A stretch of DNA of 7,231 nucleotides, from the NCBI GenBank assembly GCA_002413455.1, contig DHXA01000188.1, forward strand, positions 5,174-12,404, read 5' to 3'. Origin of the DNA: Rhodanobacter sp. UBA5168. GTDB lineage: Bacteria > Pseudomonadota > Gammaproteobacteria > Xanthomonadales > Rhodanobacteraceae. Both the position numbers and the translations under genes were made by a program. The notes under the pieces are model-generated. The model did no database searches, was not told the origin of the DNA, and saw only the letters and a list, made by a program, of their open reading frames with translations. Positions 1 through 6,412 of this stretch are shown in pieces (the first letter of the stretch is position 1; every line of letters starts with the position of its first letter).

Positions 1-218
1 TCGCCACGCTGGCACAGAGTCCGGAGACCATGGGCCTGATCACCAACGTCATCAACCTCGCCCACTCGCTGTCGCTGCGCGTGGTCGCCGAAGGTGTGGA
101 GAACGAGGAACAGGTCAAGCTGCTGCGCCTGCTGCGCTGCGATGTGCTGCAGGGCTACTTTCTCGGGAGGCCAATGCCCGCAGCGGCGTTCGAGGAACTA
201 TTGGCGCATGGGACGTAG
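1..218 (+). CDS. EAL-domain protein, C-terminal fragment (c-di-GMP phosphodiesterase type)
   Basis: The reading frame is open from base 3 at the window edge to the TAG at 216-218, so only about the last 71 residues are present and the true start lies upstream. The visible part matches the end of an EAL domain: an I-x-x-V-I-N-L-A-H-S-L helix, then the strand V-V-A-E-G-V-E-N with Q a few residues later, then C-D-V-L-Q-G-Y-F-L-G-R-P. In this family E of VVAEGVE and the DxxQGY(F/L)xxxP loop belong to the active-site region that hydrolyses cyclic di-GMP. The EAL signature itself and the metal-binding residues lie outside the window, so catalytic competence, and the presence of GGDEF, PAS or membrane parts, cannot be judged. 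The ATG at 30 is internal to the domain and is not the start. The last 64 bases overlap the 3' end of the convergent mocR1 gene. Confidence 0.9.
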   Translation, partial: ATLAQSPETMGLITNVINLAHSLSLRVVAEGVENEEQVKLLRLLRCDVLQGYFLGRPMPAAAFEELLAHGT

Positions 219-1714
219 AACGCGAGTCGCGGCCTTGCCCATCGCTCAGCTCGTCCCATCTCCGGCTCCTTTTCCAGCGCACGGCGGAGCTCGATCAATG
301 CGGCCGCGATTTCGCCCGCGTCGATCACCCCGTACCCGAACGTCACCGCCGGATCGATTTCCCGCGTCATCGCATAATCCGCCGTCGACTCGGCACCCGC
401 CGCAAACCGCAGGGTCTTCGGCATGATCGCTGCCGCCAGTTCGGGCTTGCGAATGCGGGCCGCCAGATGCAGGCCCGCTTCGGAGGGAATCGGCTCCAGC
501 CACTCACCGAGCTCCCGCCGCAGGCCATCGAGCAAGGCTTCACGCCGCTCGGCGTAGATCGGCCGCATATGCCGAACGTGCCGCGCGAGGTGGCCATCGC
601 GTATGAAGGCCGCCAGCACCGACTGGGTGATGGTGTCGCAATGCGAGTCGGCGCAGTGCTTGACCGTGATCAGGCCGTTGCGGGCCCAGGCGGGCGCGAC
701 CACGAAGCCCTTGCGCAGCGAGGGGAACATGCTCTTGGAGAACGTGCCGATGTAGAACACCAGCGCGTCGCGGTCCAGCGTCTGCAGGGCGTCCAGCGGA
801 CGCCCGCCGAAGCGGAACTCGCCGTCGTAGTCGTCCTCGACGATGACGGCACGGTGGCGGCGCGCGAACTCGAGCAAGGCGCCGCGCCGGCGCAGCGACA
901 TCGCGACGCCGGTGGGCGACTGATGCGATGGAGTGACGCTGATGACGCGCACGTCCGCGGGCAGTCGATCGACGCACAGGCCCTCGTCGTCCACCGGCAT
1001 CGGCACCAGTCGCGCGCCGGCGGCAGCGAACGCGGCACGCACGGGCGGATAACCGGGTTCCTCCACCGCCACCCGTGTCTGCCCCGGCGTGACCAGCAGC
1101 CGGGCGATCAGGTCGAACGCCTGTTGCGCACCGGAGGTCACGATGACGTCCTCGGCGGTGCAGGCCACTGCGCGGGCAAAGGCGACATGCTGGGCGATCG
1201 CCTCACGCAACGCCGGGATGCCTTCGGACGGCGCATAGGCAAAAGGTTCGCGCGAGCTCCTGCGCAAGGCCTGCCCCATCAGCCGGCGCCATATGTCGTG
1301 CGGAAAATGGCGGTGGTCCGGAATGCCGAGCCGGAAACTGCGCACCGGCAACACTCGCGCGGCCGACGGTTGCAGAAACGGCACGCGCCAGACCGGCGCA
1401 AAACGCGATTCCTCGATTTCGACTTTGGCTTTCGGCGGTTTCGTCGCACGTCGGCGGACGAGGCTGGCGACCACCGGCTTCGCACCCTTCTGCGGGATCA
1501 GATAACCCTCGGCGACCAGCAGGTCGTAGGCAGTGACCACCGTGTTGCGAGCCACGCCGAGCGCTTCGGCGACCCGTCGCGTGGCCGGCAATGGCGAGTC
1601 TGCGGGCAGTCGCCCGTCGAGGATCGCAGAGCGCAGCTGCTGGTGCAGTGCGTGGGTGAGCGTGCCCTGGCTGCGTGATGGAAGCACGACGGGAAAGGAG
1701 AAAACTGGTTCCAT
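155..1714 (-). CDS. MocR/PdxR-family regulator (GntR wHTH fused to aminotransferase-like domain), mocR1
   Basis: A 519-residue protein (from ATG 1714) with the two-domain MocR layout. Residues about 16-80 form a GntR-type winged helix (LHQQLRSAILDGRLP, LPATRRVAEALGV, NTVVTAYDLLVAEGYL). After a linker, residues about 128-480 form a fold-type-I PLP aminotransferase-like domain with TPSHQSPTG (261-269), EDDYDGEF (293-300) and GTFSKSMFPSLRKGF (323-337), where K327 is the expected Schiff-base lysine. Family members are PLP-dependent transcription factors that often sit divergent from their targets, here the MBL-fold/cupin operon starting at 1825. The frame can extend to a TTG at 1741. I prefer ATG 1714 because the extra residues do not resemble the family and they overlap a likely operator. 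The motif usually reads LRLGY; here it is LRKGF. The last 39 residues, after LRRAL, go beyond the usual family end and overlap the EAL gene. The effector is unknown. Confidence 0.93.
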   Translation of the reverse strand: MEPVFSFPVVLPSRSQGTLTHALHQQLRSAILDGRLPADSPLPATRRVAEALGVARNTVVTAYDLLVAEGYLIPQKGAKPVVASLVRRRATKPPKAKVEIEESRFAPVWRVPFLQPSAARVLPVRSFRLGIPDHRHFPHDIWRRLMGQALRRSSREPFAYAPSEGIPALREAIAQHVAFARAVACTAEDVIVTSGAQQAFDLIARLLVTPGQTRVAVEEPGYPPVRAAFAAAGARLVPMPVDDEGLCVDRLPADVRVISVTPSHQSPTGVAMSLRRRGALLEFARRHRAVIVEDDYDGEFRFGGRPLDALQTLDRDALVFYIGTFSKSMFPSLRKGFVVAPAWARNGLITVKHCADSHCDTITQSVLAAFIRDGHLARHVRHMRPIYAERREALLDGLRRELGEWLEPIPSEAGLHLAARIRKPELAAAIMPKTLRFAAGAESTADYAMTREIDPAVTFGYGVIDAGEIAAALIELRRALEKEPEMGRAERWARPRLAFYVPCANSSSNAAAGIGLPRK

Positions 1715-1750
1715 CGAATATCCATGAACTGGATCAATCAAGGCGCCAGA
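1703..1750 (+). promoter_or_regulatory. Candidate MocR1 operator: two direct repeats plus inverted half-site
   Basis: AACTGGTTCCAT (1703-1714) and AACTGGATCAAT (1727-1738) match at 10 of 12 bases and start exactly 24 bases apart. An inverted half-site, CCAGA (1746-1750), begins 18 bases after the second ACTGG core. The first copy covers the likely mocR1 start codon, which would fit autorepression, and the second lies on the side facing the MBL-fold/cupin operon. Known MocR regulators such as GabR and TauR bind direct repeats, which supports the type of site. The assignment to this protein is inference. The same 24/18 spacing is seen near mocR2. I could not find a convincing -35/-10 pair for either gene here. 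Confidence 0.5.
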
Positions 1751-1824
1751 TTACTCCCAGAATGAGCCTCGAACGAAATCGATGTCTGCCCCAATGCAGA
1801 AGCTCGACCTGAGGAGGCTCTGCC

Positions 1825-2631
1825 GTGACCCTGTCCATCTGCGAGACCTGCGGTACCCAGTATGCGGAAGCGCCTGTGGCGCCGGCGCACTGCCCAGTTT
1901 GCGAAGACGAACGCCAGTACGTCGGACCGAAAGGACAGACATGGACGACGCATGACGCACTCAAGTCCAGCTACGCACTGCGGTTAGAAGATGATGCAGG
2001 CCTGCTGGGCATCGGGCTTGCGCCGGACTTCGCGATCAACCAGCGTGCGCTTTATCTGCCCACGGATGCAGGCAACATCCTGTGGGAATGCCTCAGCCTG
2101 GTCACCGACGAGGCGGTCGGCGTGCTCAAGGCGCGCGGCGGCGTGGACCTGATCGCCATTTCGCATCCGCACTTCTACTCATCGATGGTGGAATGGAGCG
2201 AGGCACTGGGAAACGTCCCGATCCTGCTCCACCAAGCGGACATGGAATGGGTGCGCCGGCCGTCGCCGAACATCCGGTTCTGGAGTGGCGACACGCACCG
2301 GTTGTCCGACGGCGTCACGCTGATCCGCGGCGGCGGCCATTTCCCCGGCAGCACGGTATTGCACTGGAAGGACGGCCCGCGCGCCGGCGGTGCGCTGTTC
2401 TCGGGTGACGCGCCGCAGGTGGTAAGTGACCGGCGCCATGTCTCTTTCATGTACAGCTATCCCAACTACATGCCGATGAGATCCGACGCCGTGCGTGGCA
2501 TGCAGACACGCCTGGAGGGTTACGCGTTCGACGATGTGTTTGGTTACACCTGGGCCCGCAACATCATCGGCGGCGCCCGCGCGGCAGTCGACGAATCCTT
2601 CGAACGCTACCTGTCGGCCATGGCTGGCTGA
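1825..2631 (+). CDS. Zinc-ribbon plus metallo-beta-lactamase-fold protein
   Basis: A 268-residue protein starting at GTG 1825, with a strong ribosome-binding site GAGGAGG at 1811-1817, 7 bases upstream. The N-terminus has two CxxC pairs (C6/C9 and C23/C26), a rubredoxin-like or zinc-ribbon knuckle. The rest is an MBL fold: SHPHFYSS (113-120) in the place of HxHxDH, GGHFPGST (170-177) supplying H172, and FSGDAPQ (192-198) supplying D195. The aspartate and third histidine of HxHxDH are replaced by Y118 and S119, and the last MBL histidine position appears to be W243 in FGYTWARN. Four usual ligands (H114, H116, H172, D195) remain, suggesting one metal site rather than two. No signal peptide is seen, so it is likely cytoplasmic. 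It is first in an operon with the cupin gene and divergent from mocR1. The substrate cannot be told from sequence; a hydrolase or detoxifying role is only a guess. Confidence 0.88.
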   Translation: MTLSICETCGTQYAEAPVAPAHCPVCEDERQYVGPKGQTWTTHDALKSSYALRLEDDAGLLGIGLAPDFAINQRALYLPTDAGNILWECLSLVTDEAVGVLKARGGVDLIAISHPHFYSSMVEWSEALGNVPILLHQADMEWVRRPSPNIRFWSGDTHRLSDGVTLIRGGGHFPGSTVLHWKDGPRAGGALFSGDAPQVVSDRRHVSFMYSYPNYMPMRSDAVRGMQTRLEGYAFDDVFGYTWARNIIGGARAAVDESFERYLSAMAG

Positions 2632-2689
2632 TCCCTTGACCAACGAAACACAAGCGCTCACTCACACGTTATCAAAGGAGTCCGCCAGC

Positions 2690-3163
2690 ATGACCAGTCC
2701 ATCCCATCGCAGGCACGACTACCTGCCGGCGCGGTTCAGCAGCGCCGCCGCCGAGCAATGGATACCCTCCGCGACACCCGGCAAATCGTCGCGGCCGCTA
2801 CGCTTCTTCGCCAACGACCGCGGCTTCGTCGAATTGCTGCGCATGGAGCCTGGGGTGGTAATGCCGCTGCATCGCCATAGCGGCGAGATCCATGCCTACA
2901 ACCTCACGGGCACACGCAAGCTGTGTACCGGCGAGCTGATCGGCCCGGGCGATTACGTGTACGAACCGCCCGGCAATGTCGACTGGTGGAAGATCGTCGG
3001 CGACGAACCGATGATCGCCATGGTGATCGTGATGGGCACGGTGGAATTCCTCGGCCCCGGCGGCATCGTGACGGCCCGCGCATCAGCCAGCACCCAGCTG
3101 GCCGAGTACGAACGGTATTGCCGCGCGAATGGACTGACCGTGCAGGATCTGCTGGATAGCTAG
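2690..3163 (+). CDS. Cupin protein, 2,4'-dihydroxyacetophenone dioxygenase-like
   Basis: A 157-residue single-domain cupin. ATG 2690 is chosen because AAGGAG lies at 2675-2680, 9 bases upstream; the frame opens further upstream only by overlapping the MBL-fold gene. Motif 1 is at 55-74 (G55, H61, H63, E66, H68, G74; MPLHRHSGEIHAY), and motif 2 is at 87-98 (GDYVYEPPGNVD). The overall pattern, including the YEPPGNVDWW block and the C-terminal Y-E-R-Y-C-x-x-N-G-L-T, resembles proteins annotated as 2,4'-dihydroxyacetophenone dioxygenase. The founding enzyme of that group is an iron cupin that cleaves an aromatic hydroxyketone to 4-hydroxybenzoate and formate. The usual motif-2 histidine (PxGxxH) is D98 here, so the metal site is altered and the named reaction is not assured. 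It lies 58 bases after the MBL-fold gene on the same strand, very likely in one transcript. Family assignment is good; substrate is unknown. Confidence 0.87.
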   Translation: MTSPSHRRHDYLPARFSSAAAEQWIPSATPGKSSRPLRFFANDRGFVELLRMEPGVVMPLHRHSGEIHAYNLTGTRKLCTGELIGPGDYVYEPPGNVDWWKIVGDEPMIAMVIVMGTVEFLGPGGIVTARASASTQLAEYERYCRANGLTVQDLLDS

Positions 3164-3166
3164 AAG

Positions 3167-3781
3167 TCAGCGCGCAACGCTGGATGGGTCCCTGACTCGC
3201 GTGTCCGTCGCAATCCAGTTCACCTCCCAGGTCTTGCCCCCATCCGCGGAGTAGGCCTGCTCGAACCGGTACACGTCGCCCGTGACCTTCGAGATGACAA
3301 ATCGAACCAGGATGTCGCGGCCGTCCAGTGTCTCCTTGTCGTAAAACGCGCCGCGTCCATTCTTGAATCCGCCGACCGTGGGCACACCCAATCCACCGCC
3401 CCTGCTGCTGGCAACGTTGAGGCTCCACCGACGGGACGCGGGGTCGTACAGGCGCAGGGACAACAATTCGATGTGGCCTGCCCGACCGTCGACTTCGAGT
3501 TCGACCAGGTTGGCGCGGCCGTTCCAGATTTTGCGGACGACACTGGTGCCGTCGTACTCGAGCCAGACCTTGGAGCCGGTCAACGGGTGCTGGAGGCGCG
3601 AAACGCGGGTTTTCCAGTTGCCGATCTCGAAATCGAAATCGTGCTGGCCATCTCGATTCGCCGAGCTGCGGCTTGTTGCCGGTGCAGCGGCTGGCTGGCT
3701 GGCGAATCCCTGCAGCGGAAGCACGCCGGCGATCAGGACCGAGGCCAGGAGGCCGGCACGAATGGATCGAATTGCATTCAT
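3167..3781 (-). CDS. Secreted DUF1579-like protein
   Basis: A 204-residue protein starting at ATG 3781, preceded by GAGGGA six bases upstream. An ATG at 3805 in the same frame has no such site and lies inside the upstream gene. The N-terminus is a Sec signal peptide: arginines at 5 and 8, a hydrophobic stretch LLASVLIAGVLPL, and a likely cut near GFAS-Q (about residue 28). A low-complexity Ala/Ser linker follows, then a beta-rich domain beginning QHDFDFEIGNWK (46-57) and including R-L-Y-D-P, GxFKNGRGAFYD and SADGGKTWEVNW. This pattern is typical of DUF1579 or related 'HDFDFxxGxW' proteins of unknown function found in proteobacteria. No catalytic residues are obvious; a lipocalin-like binding role is possible but unproven. 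The gene is second in an operon after the outer-membrane protein gene, 10 bases downstream of its stop, and is presumably periplasmic or exported. Confidence 0.82.
   Translation of the reverse strand: MNAIRSIRAGLLASVLIAGVLPLQGFASQPAAAPATSRSSANRDGQHDFDFEIGNWKTRVSRLQHPLTGSKVWLEYDGTSVVRKIWNGRANLVELEVDGRAGHIELLSLRLYDPASRRWSLNVASSRGGGLGVPTVGGFKNGRGAFYDKETLDGRDILVRFVISKVTGDVYRFEQAYSADGGKTWEVNWIATDTRVRDPSSVAR
3168..3182. terminator. Small stem-loop between convergent operons (weak terminator candidate)
   Basis: A perfect 5-base stem, CAGCG (3168-3172) with CGCTG (3178-3182), closes a CGCAA loop. It begins 4 bases after the cupin stop codon and includes part of the stop codon of the opposing DUF1579-like gene. 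There is no T-run on either side, so it is not a standard intrinsic terminator. It may help end transcription or stabilise 3' ends, or it may be chance. Confidence 0.25.
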
Positions 3782-3794
3782 CGCGATTCCCTCA
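3782..3794 (-). promoter_or_regulatory. Stop codon overlapping ribosome-binding site (translational coupling)
   Basis: On the minus strand the TGA of the outer-membrane protein gene (3794-3792) runs into GAGGGA (3793-3788), the ribosome-binding site for the ATG at 3781. Ribosomes finishing the first gene would be positioned to reinitiate on the second. This supports one mRNA with linked expression and fixes the start of the DUF1579-like gene. Confidence 0.65.
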
Positions 3795-4820
3795 GTAGAC
3801 GACATTGAGCGCCATGACCGGTGTGACCGTGGTCATCGTGTTGTGGCCCCCCGTGATCACCCGGACACCAAAAATCGCACCGACGTTGGCGTTCCAGCTG
3901 TACTCCACCGCCGGTGCAAACCCGAACGCCGTACTGGAGCCGGAGTCCAGGTGGATACTCGGCGGAGTGGGCAGGCCGCTGGAATCCGGCCCCTGCACGT
4001 AGCCGGTCACCGAGGTGTTACGGCTGTGGCTGTAGGTCAGGTCGAGCGCCAGTACCCAGCTGCGCGTCAGGCTGTATTCCCAGGCCAGATCGGCAAAGAA
4101 GGAACTTCCGGGCCTGGCGATTCCGCGAAATCCCTGCCCGGTTCCGTAGACACTGGCGTCGGCAATGTTCGCATGGCTGGAAAACGCCTGCGACACATCG
4201 AAGCGCATGCGCAGGATGCGGCCGTTCGCCAACCAGAAGTAGGTCTGGGTGTTGAGCTGCAACGTCGTCACATGGGCGCCGCTGCCGAGGCCGTCGGCCG
4301 GCCGGTCGCCGAGCCGATCGTATTTTCCGGTGGGAAAGGTCTCCTGCACCTCGATGGAAGCCGTCGGTACCCAGCTGCCTTCATGAAACTGCGTGAGCTG
4401 GTACTGCGCGAGCAAGGTGAAATCGCCCAGCCCCACGTGTGAGCTGTGCGGGCCATCGCTCACCGTGTTGTAGCCGAACACCGGGATCACCCCGATCGTG
4501 AATCGGTTGGCCAGTCCGTAGAGCAGGTACGTGCGCGAACCGTAGCTATGCGAATGCGCACTGGAGATGTCGTACAGATACGGCTCGGCCAGGACATGTC
4601 CCTGCGGCAGCGTTCCGGCCGAATTCGCCAGCAAGGGGCCCGTCCACCAGGCATCGTCCAGCGACTGATTGTTCGAGGATGGCGCCGGCACGCTTGCCGC
4701 AGCGACCGCGACGGCTTGGGCGAAGGCCGGATCAGAGCCCAGAAAACTTCCCGCCATGCACGTCAACAGGGTGCTGATCACCCATCGAAACGGGATCATC
4801 TTCGGGACCGGCCACATCAT
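3792..4820 (-). CDS. Outer-membrane beta-barrel protein, phenol meta-pathway 'transporter' type
   Basis: A 342-residue protein with a Sec signal peptide: a basic and hydrophobic N-terminus, core WVISTLLTCMAGSFLG, and a likely cut after PAFA at residue 34. The mature part shows alternating amphipathic strands rich in Tyr, Phe and Trp and ends in NVVY, as usual for outer-membrane barrels. Sections such as YGLANRFTIGVIPVFGYN, GLGDFTLLAQYQL and ETFPTGKYD (about 160-168) resemble the family named for the phenol meta-cleavage pathway (Phenol_MetA_deg, usually annotated 'transporter'). Those proteins are thought to let hydrophobic or aromatic compounds cross the outer membrane, but few have been tested. 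The start at 4820 has GGAAG a few bases upstream; ATG 4817 or 4799 are less favoured alternatives. LLTC resembles a lipobox poorly, and the AFA site fits better. It is first in the operon with the DUF1579-like gene and divergent from mocR2, its probable regulator. Confidence 0.85.
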   Translation of the reverse strand: MMWPVPKMIPFRWVISTLLTCMAGSFLGSDPAFAQAVAVAAASVPAPSSNNQSLDDAWWTGPLLANSAGTLPQGHVLAEPYLYDISSAHSHSYGSRTYLLYGLANRFTIGVIPVFGYNTVSDGPHSSHVGLGDFTLLAQYQLTQFHEGSWVPTASIEVQETFPTGKYDRLGDRPADGLGSGAHVTTLQLNTQTYFWLANGRILRMRFDVSQAFSSHANIADASVYGTGQGFRGIARPGSSFFADLAWEYSLTRSWVLALDLTYSHSRNTSVTGYVQGPDSSGLPTPPSIHLDSGSSTAFGFAPAVEYSWNANVGAIFGVRVITGGHNTMTTVTPVMALNVVY

Positions 4821-4868
4821 TCGATCTTCCAGCGCATCACATGGGATACGCGAGAAATTAAACCGCGC

Positions 4869-4918
4869 AGTGGTCTACTGAAATATCCACTTTGACGAGA
4901 TACGCTATAACCACTTTG
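4869..4918 (-). promoter_or_regulatory. Candidate MocR2 operator: two direct repeats plus inverted half-site
   Basis: On the minus strand, CAAAGTGGTTAT (4918-4907) and CAAAGTGGATAT (4894-4883) match at 11 of 12 bases, with a 24-base period. An inverted half-site CCACT (4873-4869, within GTAGACCACT) begins 18 bases after the second AGTGG core. The cluster sits in an A/T-richer patch of the 110-base gap between the divergent mocR2 and outer-membrane protein genes. On the plus strand TATAAC (4906-4911) could serve as a -10 for mocR2 but lacks a clear -35. Direct-repeat operators are known for MocR regulators; binding by this protein is inferred. Confidence 0.6.
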
Positions 4919-4930
4919 CGAGGTCCCCGC

Positions 4931-6412
4931 ATGCAACGCATCTCCGCCAGCTTCCTGCCGCCGATCGCGCTCGATGCCGACAGCGCGACCCCGATGCACC
5001 GCCAACTGTCCGACTGGTTCAGGCGGGCCATCGTCGACGGCCAGTTGCGGCCGGGCCAACGTGTGCCATCAAGCAGGAGCCTTGCCGGCGAATTGAAGAT
5101 TTCCCGCATACCGGTTCTTGGCGCGTATGAACAGCTGTACGCCGAGGGTTATCTGGAGACTTTCGTTGGTGCCGGCACATGCGTCGCCCGATCGATCCCC
5201 GAAGAGGCACTGCGACCGGCGAACATGAAGTCACGACACGCGCCGCTGCAGATCCCGGAGAACAGGGCTGCACGAAGGATCTCGCAGCGGTCGGTGTTGA
5301 TGCGCGAGCCGGCGCAGTCATGGCTGGACAGCCAGGGCGCCTTTCGAATCGGTTTGCCTGCGCTCGAACATTTTCCGACGGTTGTGTGGTCGAAACTGGT
5401 CAATCGGCATGCGCGAAAACCGTCCGTGGACATGATGGTCTACGGCGACCCGATGGGATACCTGCCATTACGCGAAGCGATCGCAGAGTACCTCAACACC
5501 GTTCGCGCCGTGCGCTGCGATGCTTCGCAGATCCTGATGACGACCGGATCACAACAGGGTTTGCAGATTTGCGCGCATGTGCTGCTGGACCCCGGGGAGC
5601 GCGCGTGGGTGGAGGAGCCCGGCTACCCCGGCGCGCGCCAGGCGTTGATAACCGTAGGCGCCAGGCTCATTCCGGTACCTGTCGACCATGAAGGCCTCAA
5701 CGTGGCCGAGGGCATTCGCCGCGGCCGCAGCGCACGCGCCGTCTATGTCACTCCGTCACACCAGTTTCCATTGGGTACGGCCATGAGTGCGGCGCGACGC
5801 ATGCAATTGCTGAACTGGGCGATGCGCAGCGGGGCCTGGATCGTCGAAGACGACTACGACAGCGAGTTCCGTTTTGGCGGCAGCCCGATCGCTTCGCTGC
5901 AGGGGCTGGACGCCGACGACCGGGTCATCTATGTCGGCACCTTCAGCAAGGTCGTGTTCCCCGCGCTGCGCCTCGGTTACGTGGTGGTGCCGAAGGATCT
6001 CGTGCCCGCGTTCTTCGATGCGCGCAACGCGGTCGACACGTTTTCTTCCACGCTGTACCAGGCCGTCATGACCGACTTCCTCCGCGAGGGACATTTTGCG
6101 CGGCACATCCGCCGCATGCGCATGCTCTACCTCGAACGGCGAGCGGCGCTGCTGGAAGCGATCCACAAGTACATGGCGGGCACGCTCGAAGTCGTCGGTG
6201 CGGAAGCCGGCATGCAGCTTACGGCGTTGCTGCCGCCCGGCGTTGACGACGTGGCGGTGTCGAGAAAGGCGGGCCATCACGGCGTTTCGGCCCGGCCGTT
6301 GTCCCTCTGCTATGCAAACCCGCCAGTCAGGGGCGGCCTGATCCTCGGTTACAGCGGCGCCAGCGTGAGCGAGATCCGGGAGGGTATCCGCAAGCTCAGG
6401 ATGTGTCTCTGA
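4931..6412 (+). CDS. MocR/PdxR-family regulator (GntR wHTH fused to aminotransferase-like domain), mocR2
   Basis: A 493-residue protein, of usual length for the family. ATG 4931 has GCGAGG 7 bases upstream and the typical opening for the group; an in-frame TTG at 4892 falls inside the operator repeats and is rejected. Residues about 20-85 form the winged helix (MHRQLSDWFRRAIVDGQLRPG, VPSSRSLAGELKISR, GAYEQLYAEGYL). Where family members usually have SRxTV, it has SRIPV. Residues about 138-490 form the PLP fold-type-I domain with VTPSHQFPLGTAMS (273-286), EDDYDSEFRFGG (306-317) and GTFSKVVFPALRLGY (336-350), K340 being the expected PLP lysine. All the main aminotransferase motifs are intact, so PLP binding is likely. 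It is divergent from the outer-membrane protein/DUF1579-like operon, the likely target. It is clearly paralogous to mocR1 yet well diverged, so this is not a recent duplication. The PdxR-like group can sense PLP, but a role in vitamin B6 control is not indicated by the neighbours. Confidence 0.94.
   Translation: MQRISASFLPPIALDADSATPMHRQLSDWFRRAIVDGQLRPGQRVPSSRSLAGELKISRIPVLGAYEQLYAEGYLETFVGAGTCVARSIPEEALRPANMKSRHAPLQIPENRAARRISQRSVLMREPAQSWLDSQGAFRIGLPALEHFPTVVWSKLVNRHARKPSVDMMVYGDPMGYLPLREAIAEYLNTVRAVRCDASQILMTTGSQQGLQICAHVLLDPGERAWVEEPGYPGARQALITVGARLIPVPVDHEGLNVAEGIRRGRSARAVYVTPSHQFPLGTAMSAARRMQLLNWAMRSGAWIVEDDYDSEFRFGGSPIASLQGLDADDRVIYVGTFSKVVFPALRLGYVVVPKDLVPAFFDARNAVDTFSSTLYQAVMTDFLREGHFARHIRRMRMLYLERRAALLEAIHKYMAGTLEVVGAEAGMQLTALLPPGVDDVAVSRKAGHHGVSARPLSLCYANPPVRGGLILGYSGASVSEIREGIRKLRMCL

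Follow-up and report, generated by a model that had tools for sequence, protein, structure and literature searches.

Why do two MocR-type regulator genes on one contig face their divergent targets across the same arrangement of three short half-sites, and what would the third, inverted half-site be for? This question arises from a stretch of 7,231 nucleotides of Rhodanobacter sp. UBA5168 (assembly GCA_002413455.1, contig DHXA01000188.1, positions 5,174 to 12,404 of the forward strand; hereafter the window), in which mocR1 lies opposite the genes of a 268-residue protein and a cupin, and mocR2 opposite those of an outer-membrane-type protein (OMP) and then a 204-residue protein. Judged by comparison with related sequences, the two arrays are very probably MocR operators, and each would rather likely form, together with the predicted promoter of its target, one compact module of about 60 bases. 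We favour, with a probability of roughly 0.6, a composite mechanism in which the direct boxes would activate the target promoter, the third box would offer a promoter-blocking register, and an effector would choose between them via pyridoxal 5'-phosphate (PLP).

Two arrays of one geometry

A sequence-only reading of the window had described two arrays of two direct boxes and one inverted box, both pointing from the regulator gene to its divergent target in one common layout. A letter-by-letter check agrees with it in coordinates, spacings and orientation; in the mocR1 array, CCAGA starts at 1746, 18 bases after ACTGG at 1728. Counted between the cores, the geometry is the same in both arrays, with 24 bases from TGG to TGG and 16 from the second TGG to the inverted CCA (24/16 below). 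The regulator genes and the boxes are as follows.

155..1714, minus strand: mocR1, MocR-type regulator (GntR winged helix-turn-helix and aminotransferase domain), ATG at 1714; from open reading frame (ORF), Pfam and NCBIfam
4931..6412, plus strand: mocR2, MocR-type regulator; from ORF, Pfam, NCBIfam and a phmmer match to GabR structures
1703..1714, plus strand: mocR1 array box 1, AACTGGTTCCAT; overlaps the mocR1 start codon, kept in 11/11 genus genomes with the module
1727..1738, plus strand: mocR1 array box 2, AACTGGATCAAT; direct repeat, 24 bases from box 1, kept in 11/11
1746..1753, minus strand: mocR1 array box 3, inverted, CCAGATTA on plus; CCA 16 bases past the TGG of box 2
4907..4918, minus strand: mocR2 array box 1, CAAAGTGGTTAT; core 17 bases upstream of the mocR2 start
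4883..4894, minus strand: mocR2 array box 2, CAAAGTGGATAT; starts 24 bases from box 1
4869..4873, plus strand: mocR2 array box 3, inverted, AGTGG on plus (CCACT, 4873-4869 on minus)

Chance was assessed by first-order resampling of both regions (n=3000), which preserves dinucleotide frequencies on average only. The tripartite score of the mocR1 region was reached, at any geometry, in 53/3000 resampled sequences and that of mocR2 in 12/3000, and no resampled pair (0/3000) reached both in one common geometry.

Both regulators carry the N-terminal GntR winged helix and the C-terminal class I/II aminotransferase domain that mark MocR proteins, above the Pfam cut-offs; the mocR1 query for Pfam and NCBIfam was 218-1714, that is, without the last 20 residues. 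The GTFSK motif of mocR2 is aligned by phmmer to GTFSK of GabR, FSK lysine motif included, and the same motif is seen, without alignment, in the translation of mocR1; its lysine we take to be the PLP-binding lysine of MocR proteins. The two proteins are 39% identical, and their best NCBIfam match is rhizopine_MocR (NF052281), yet both stay below its 650-bit cut-off, with 501.2 bits for mocR2 and 419.1 bits for mocR1 (query short of 20 C-terminal residues). Both pass the PdxR model (NF052282; cut-off 320 bits) with 395.6 (mocR1, shortened query) and 428.9 bits (mocR2), but this model is broad, since a rhizopine MocR also passes it with 433.3 bits. Pfam and NCBIfam recognised no pdx gene among the genes adjoining mocR1 and mocR2, the 268-residue protein and the 204-residue protein having no family match there.

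Conservation within the genus

In a sample of 45 genomes of the genus, the mocR1 target was found in 11, and all 11 have a divergent adjoining mocR1 with three boxes at 24/16. Orthologues of mocR2, taken at an identity of at least 63%, were found in 10 genomes, and their regions also keep three boxes at 24/16 (10/10), as seen in the alignment of orthologous intergenic regions that the sequence-only reading had proposed as its check. The two weak points that it had seen in the mocR1 array resolve as well: box 1, which overlaps coding sequence, is kept in 11/11, and the third site, imperfect in the window (TCTGGCGC read outwards), is TCTGGAYC in 9/11, with CCAGATTA in 11/11. In the mocR2 regions, AGTGG (box 1), AAGTGGNTATT (box 2) and CCACT (box 3) are found in 10/10. 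Between genus relatives, the intervening sequence and the leaders diverge while the boxes stay.

Less of what had been proposed for the individual letters survives. The alternation of T in the first copy and A in the second is there in the window and is lost across orthologues, where this position is T in 8 and C in 3 (box 1) and A in 10 and C in 1 (box 2) of the mocR1 regions, and C in 6 and T in 4 (box 1) and C in 6, A in 2 and T in 2 (box 2) of the mocR2 regions. Nor is a single C/G core base supported as the discriminator between the two arrays; the core of mocR1 box 2 is AATGG in 9/11 genomes and the consensus of boxes 1 and 2, AGTGGNYA for mocR2 versus MTGGNTC for mocR1, differs at several positions. 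Cross-talk likewise finds no support: neither exact array pattern has a match in the region of the other regulator or elsewhere in the genome of the window (85% complete), looser sites having not been sought. The exact patterns were derived from the genus alignments, so that matches in those regions are by construction; they have no match in any of the 45 genomes that lack the module, and reversed-pattern controls gave 0/45 for both.

Among 63 MocR places in the genus, of which one (L039) has its start by extrapolation, the array in its strict 24/16 form is found upstream of the 10 mocR2 genes, the 11 mocR1 genes and two genes of a third paralogue. This third paralogue (L041, L073) has TTGGATC and GTGGATC boxes, and its box 1 overlaps its likely start codon. 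The mocR1 and mocR2 modules occur together in only two of the 45 genomes (G000 and G004); in G004, three MocR genes lie within about 15 kb (C1, 1236604-1251181), a further one standing between the mocR1 and mocR2 orthologues.

One genome, G025 (L021), contains a second complete mocR2-type array, which starts at 3002 when the locus is turned and separates the 3' end of mocR2 from a gene of the same family as the 204-residue protein (36% identical over 147 residues), with a -10-like TAGCTT seen by eye 13 bases after its CCA. A relative from that family (58% over 153 residues) also stands opposite the first array of this genome. Since the second array lies away from a mocR start, the module goes with the target as well as with the start of the regulator gene.

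In the window, a fourth, inverted half-site CCA is observed at 1722-1724, with which the mocR1 array reads 24/16 from both ends. By strict pattern, it is shared by the window and G004 (L002, L067) and recurs in L041 and L073, which are related paralogues; given its absence from the other nine mocR1 regions, we take it as local.

The geometry among wider MocR relatives

Named relatives were surveyed as the best 80 of 592 confirmed. A scan based on TGG identified a tripartite array with 23-24 bases between the direct boxes and 16-18 to the inverted one in 32 of these 80, distributed over the cells 24/16 (n=11), 24/17 (n=8), 23/18 (n=8), 23/17 (n=5) and 24/18 (n=1), with L124 falling into two of them. 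As controls, shuffled sequences gave 0.021 per cell and 80 loci, randomly placed windows from these loci 4/480 and the opposite strand 3/80. All but one of the 32 arrays (31/32) extend over 40-41 bases from box 1 to box 3. Array-positive members are found in 18 of the 44 clusters that the 80 proteins form at 60% identity and in 6 of the 14 at 50%, and the record titles of the positive loci include Rhodanobacter, Dyella, Burkholderiales, Acidobacteriota, Anaerolineae and Verrucomicrobia; these phylum labels are provisional, because many of the loci are contigs of metagenome-assembled genomes. Five of the eight loci in the 23/18 cell lie upstream of what we take to be gabT-like genes, recognised from their first 60 residues without family search.

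Near-miss arrays were seen by eye in L101 and L118 (among 20 printed regions), and 32 is therefore probably a lower bound. A scan free of box letters, run on 142 upstream regions, again placed the 24-base direct spacing at the top (225 cell hits versus 115 per shuffle set); the TGG-based scan is preferred because this one has more background. Two side observations concern single loci. In L180 (Phyllobacterium sp. T1293), a four-box array (-> -> -> <-, spacings 23, 23 and 16, by eye) separates the MocR gene from a divergent MFS transporter. In L100 and L103, mocR2 is present at 66-72% identity on contigs whose titles say Acidobacteria and which may be misbinned or transferred.

Register of the third box with the predicted promoter

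On the target side of the genus alignments, a -10-like hexamer begins 12 (mocR1) or 13 (mocR2) bases after CCA, which we infer to be the -10 element.

1758..1763, plus strand: predicted -10 element of the mocR1 target promoter, CAGAAT; 12 bases after CCA
4855..4860, minus strand: predicted -10 element of the OMP promoter (mocR2 target), TAATTT; 13 bases after CCA

The mocR1-target element is CAGAAT in the window and in G004 and TAGAGT in the other 9/11 genomes, and that of the OMP promoter is TAATTT in the window and TAKNYT in the other nine. In the 32 arrays of the wider relatives, TANNNT matches number 3 at +11, 5 at +12 and 8 at +13, with a total of 5 over the other 22 offsets examined. TA stands at +12/+13 after CCA in 17/32 arrays (background 4.2% per position; binomial p ~6e-11), and in 10/25 when L100-L108 are left out (p ~1.5e-5), in a test that takes its offsets from the two modules of the window and treats the loci as independent. 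In 31 of 41 rows with TA at +11 to +14, the best -35 matches reach only 2-3 of 6 positions. A -10-like element thus often begins 11-13 bases past the third box, which would place this box in the spacer between -35 and -10. Such a fixed -10 register across MocR clusters is not described in the literature searched, which comprised the available parts of PMC5320631, PMC4944035, PMC9452892, PMC8739950 and PMC10107442, among others, most subscription papers being outside its coverage.

Proposed mechanism and alternative explanations

MocR genes often lie divergent from their targets, MocR proteins often repress their own gene, GabR dimers are arranged head-to-tail, and apo-PdxR favours direct repeats and PLP-PdxR inverted repeats (Suvorova and Rodionov, 2016; PMC5320631; this and the other articles cited by accession are drawn on in part). 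In the composite mechanism, boxes 1 and 2 (at about -65 and -41) would be occupied by a MocR dimer in head-to-tail arrangement, which would activate a promoter with a weak -35 element. The same dimer would keep mocR repressed, as the start codon or the leader of the regulator gene is covered by box 1. Box 3, at about -25, would fall between -35 and -10, and RNA polymerase would therefore be shut out once a dimer sat on boxes 2 and 3; an effector reacting with PLP would select between the direct-repeat and the inverted-repeat registers. That MocR activates the target side is probable, and that box 3 provides a blocking register is possible, though we would put it somewhat short of even odds.

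Several observations weigh against this mechanism or its generality. In a synthetic promoter of Bacillus subtilis GabR, removal of the box in the spacer lowered the response to γ-aminobutyric acid (GABA) and did not raise it (PMC9452892), which argues against a purely blocking third box, and EnuR is a MocR repressor (PMC8739950), so that activation cannot be assumed. The mocR1 target of the window itself carries CAGAAT rather than TAGAGT, TA is absent at +12/+13 in 15/32 arrays, the third box is poor in some of the 32 (L137, L159, L176), and in each of the two Phyllobacterium zundukense promoters described below one box is degenerate (CTG for box 2 on the mocB side, CGG for box 1 on the mocD side). 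Strict TGG/TGG/CCA at 24/16 is found in just 13/80 relatives, four of them (L114, L148, L151, L173) outside the 32. By the scan criteria, 48/80 relatives have no 23-24/16-18 array, and 40/63 genus MocR regions have none by the strict pattern; the array is therefore not universal.

The role of box 3 is where the nearest alternatives part. If MocR dimers occupied all three boxes across the promoter and the effector simply released them, there would be no activation step; box 3 would then lie inside the core promoter, and EnuR does repress, from predicted operators over -35 and -10 (PMC8739950). Such plain repression appears unlikely next to the weak -35 elements of 31/41 scored rows, as expected of an activated promoter, and to the rhizopine MocR, the nearest named relative type, which is reported to facilitate induced expression (PMC10107442). 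The third box could otherwise be a helper that stabilises or loops the complex and raises activation, in keeping with the synthetic GabR promoter, where loss of the spacer box reduced activation and did not abolish it, and with the span of 40-41 bases from box 1 to box 3, near the 41-bp GabR region (PMC9452892). However, a helper at this position would overlap the space needed by RNA polymerase, and the GabR layout has a different box order, so that we consider this explanation possible, if rather unlikely.

Other explanations concern what the arrays are. The sequence-only reading had seen in them a code of the pair, two paralogues that keep one layout one core base apart, with separated specificity or cross-talk, and in the window the two regulators are indeed close together and their arrays equally spaced. 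Yet they are only 39% identical and co-occur in 2/45 genomes, the core difference is not conserved, and the layout reaches far outside the pair, to 32 of the best 80 relatives across several named phyla; on the co-occurrence and the conserved half-sites we rejected this explanation, which is very improbable. Genus relatives share ancestry, and the boxes could have been kept by mere descent, as promoter or leader sequence and not as regulator sites, but they stay while their surroundings diverge, and many protein clusters show this geometry with other letters in the boxes, which makes such an origin hardly credible.

The composite mechanism thus remains our preferred reading for the window. Its extension, that one composite module, with box 3 at a fixed distance from -10 in the spacer and the dimer register as an on/off switch, would be in use across much of the MocR family (Proteobacteria through to Acidobacteriota and Chloroflexota), is possible, though less likely than not. 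Beyond the standard layout, the present analysis adds a measured rule, one geometry class of 23-24/16-18 across many protein clusters that is registered with a -10-like element in about half of the arrays. If the proposal held true at the bench, there would be a simple physical reason for the existence of the third half-site, the operators and target promoters of uncharacterised MocR proteins would be predictable from sequence alone, and the two modules of the window would be clean test cases.

The predicted target genes

1825..2631, plus strand: 268-residue protein, predicted mocR1 target; divergent from the adjoining mocR1 in the genus loci
2690..3163, plus strand: cupin (Pfam Cupin_7 and Cupin_2), likely second gene of the mocR1 target operon
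3167..3781, minus strand: predicted mocR2 target of 204 residues; predicted 10-strand beta barrel, spirocyclase/nitrobindin-like fold
3792..4820, minus strand: predicted mocR2 target, outer-membrane-type protein (Phenol_MetA_deg, Pfam)

The 268-residue protein, which the sequence-only reading took as metallo-beta-lactamase-like, has no Pfam match and no profile match among solved structures, and its fold is predicted with low confidence (mean pLDDT 49). It shows a pair of N-terminal cysteine motifs, CETC and CPVC, and a weak rubredoxin-like match (E 0.068).

The 204-residue protein is predicted to form a 10-strand barrel (mean pLDDT 76.6), closest to the OlmO/OssO spirocyclases and with nitrobindin among the next matches, and its family matches Pfam DUF1579 weakly (best E 0.0087, 4/12 family members). 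Relatives of this barrel protein are present in 6/10 genus mocR2 loci and within the flanks of 8 of the best 80 loci (L100, L103, L104, L105, L106, L114, L118 and L140), and an outer-membrane-type gene in 10/10 genus mocR2 loci and 7 of the best 80 named loci; given this distribution, the mocR2 regulon is better named by both proteins than by the outer-membrane-type protein alone. Barrel relatives are also observed less than about 200 bases from other MocR genes of the genus (L083, L085, L087, L088, L090 and L091), and the barrel family and MocR proteins therefore seem to travel together.

Comparison with known MocR systems

An inverted third half-site had been thought unusual for the family, but '-> -> <-' is the most frequent MocR motif layout, with 103 regulogs and 245 regulons (Table 2 of PMC5320631). 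The arrays of the window share two direct boxes and one inverted box with the three-box MocR motifs of Suvorova and Rodionov (2016; PMC5320631), and also their constant spacing within an orthologous group (24/16 in 11/11 and 10/10). The -10 register, seen here for the modules of the window, is not described for those motifs in the available text, and the targets differ from those treated there, 'metallo' and 'outer membrane' being absent from its main text. The proteobacterial GabR motif of the same work has a spacing of 23/18 instead of 24/16, the cell to which the five loci with gabT-like genes belong. Term look-up did not find the operator layout in the accessible parts of PMC4254191 and PMC6917764.

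The GabR of B. subtilis resembles the window in its three boxes within 41 bp over divergent promoters, and its synthetic promoter with native box spacing, with the third box in the -35/-10 spacer, is a designed parallel to box 3 of the window; it differs in the box order (-> <- ->) and in its 6-nt boxes (PMC9452892). The PdxR of Bacillus clausii also combines direct and inverted repeats, and PLP moves its preference from the direct to the inverted ones (as told in PMC5320631), but no pdx gene was recognised in the window; a literature search for PdxR structures on DNA gave no hit.

The rhizopine system, the founder type of MocR, comes close in its operator. Its promoter PmocB is induced, has a functional region of 72 bp and a start mapped to 46 bp upstream of mocB, and contains two 11-bp direct repeats AAAGYGGYTCT with a 13-bp spacer, that is, 24 apart and close to the mocR2 box (PMC10107442); an inverted third box is not mentioned in the available part of that article. 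A plasmid-encoded MocR of P. zundukense (L182), 41% identical to mocR2, passes the rhizopine model (765.1 bits, cut-off 650), and its neighbours are annotated as a sugar-transporter binding protein, a Gfo/Idh/MocA oxidoreductase, a fatty acid desaturase and a MocE-family ferredoxin, which we read as mocB, mocA, mocD and mocE. Here the inverted box is present too, the array being seen at 24/17 in each of the two promoters, on the mocB side and on the mocD side. When the PmocB start is carried over by hand count, box 3 runs from about -28 and box 1 from about -69, in apparent agreement with the positions predicted for the window; this transfer is indicative only, because the strains differ. The differences are the 17 bases to box 3 (16 in the window), the rhizopine catabolism targets and the equivalog cut-off, which the proteins of the window miss. 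Altogether, the three-box layout is already known for MocR proteins, and the two modules of the window illustrate this type of switch well without being a new one.

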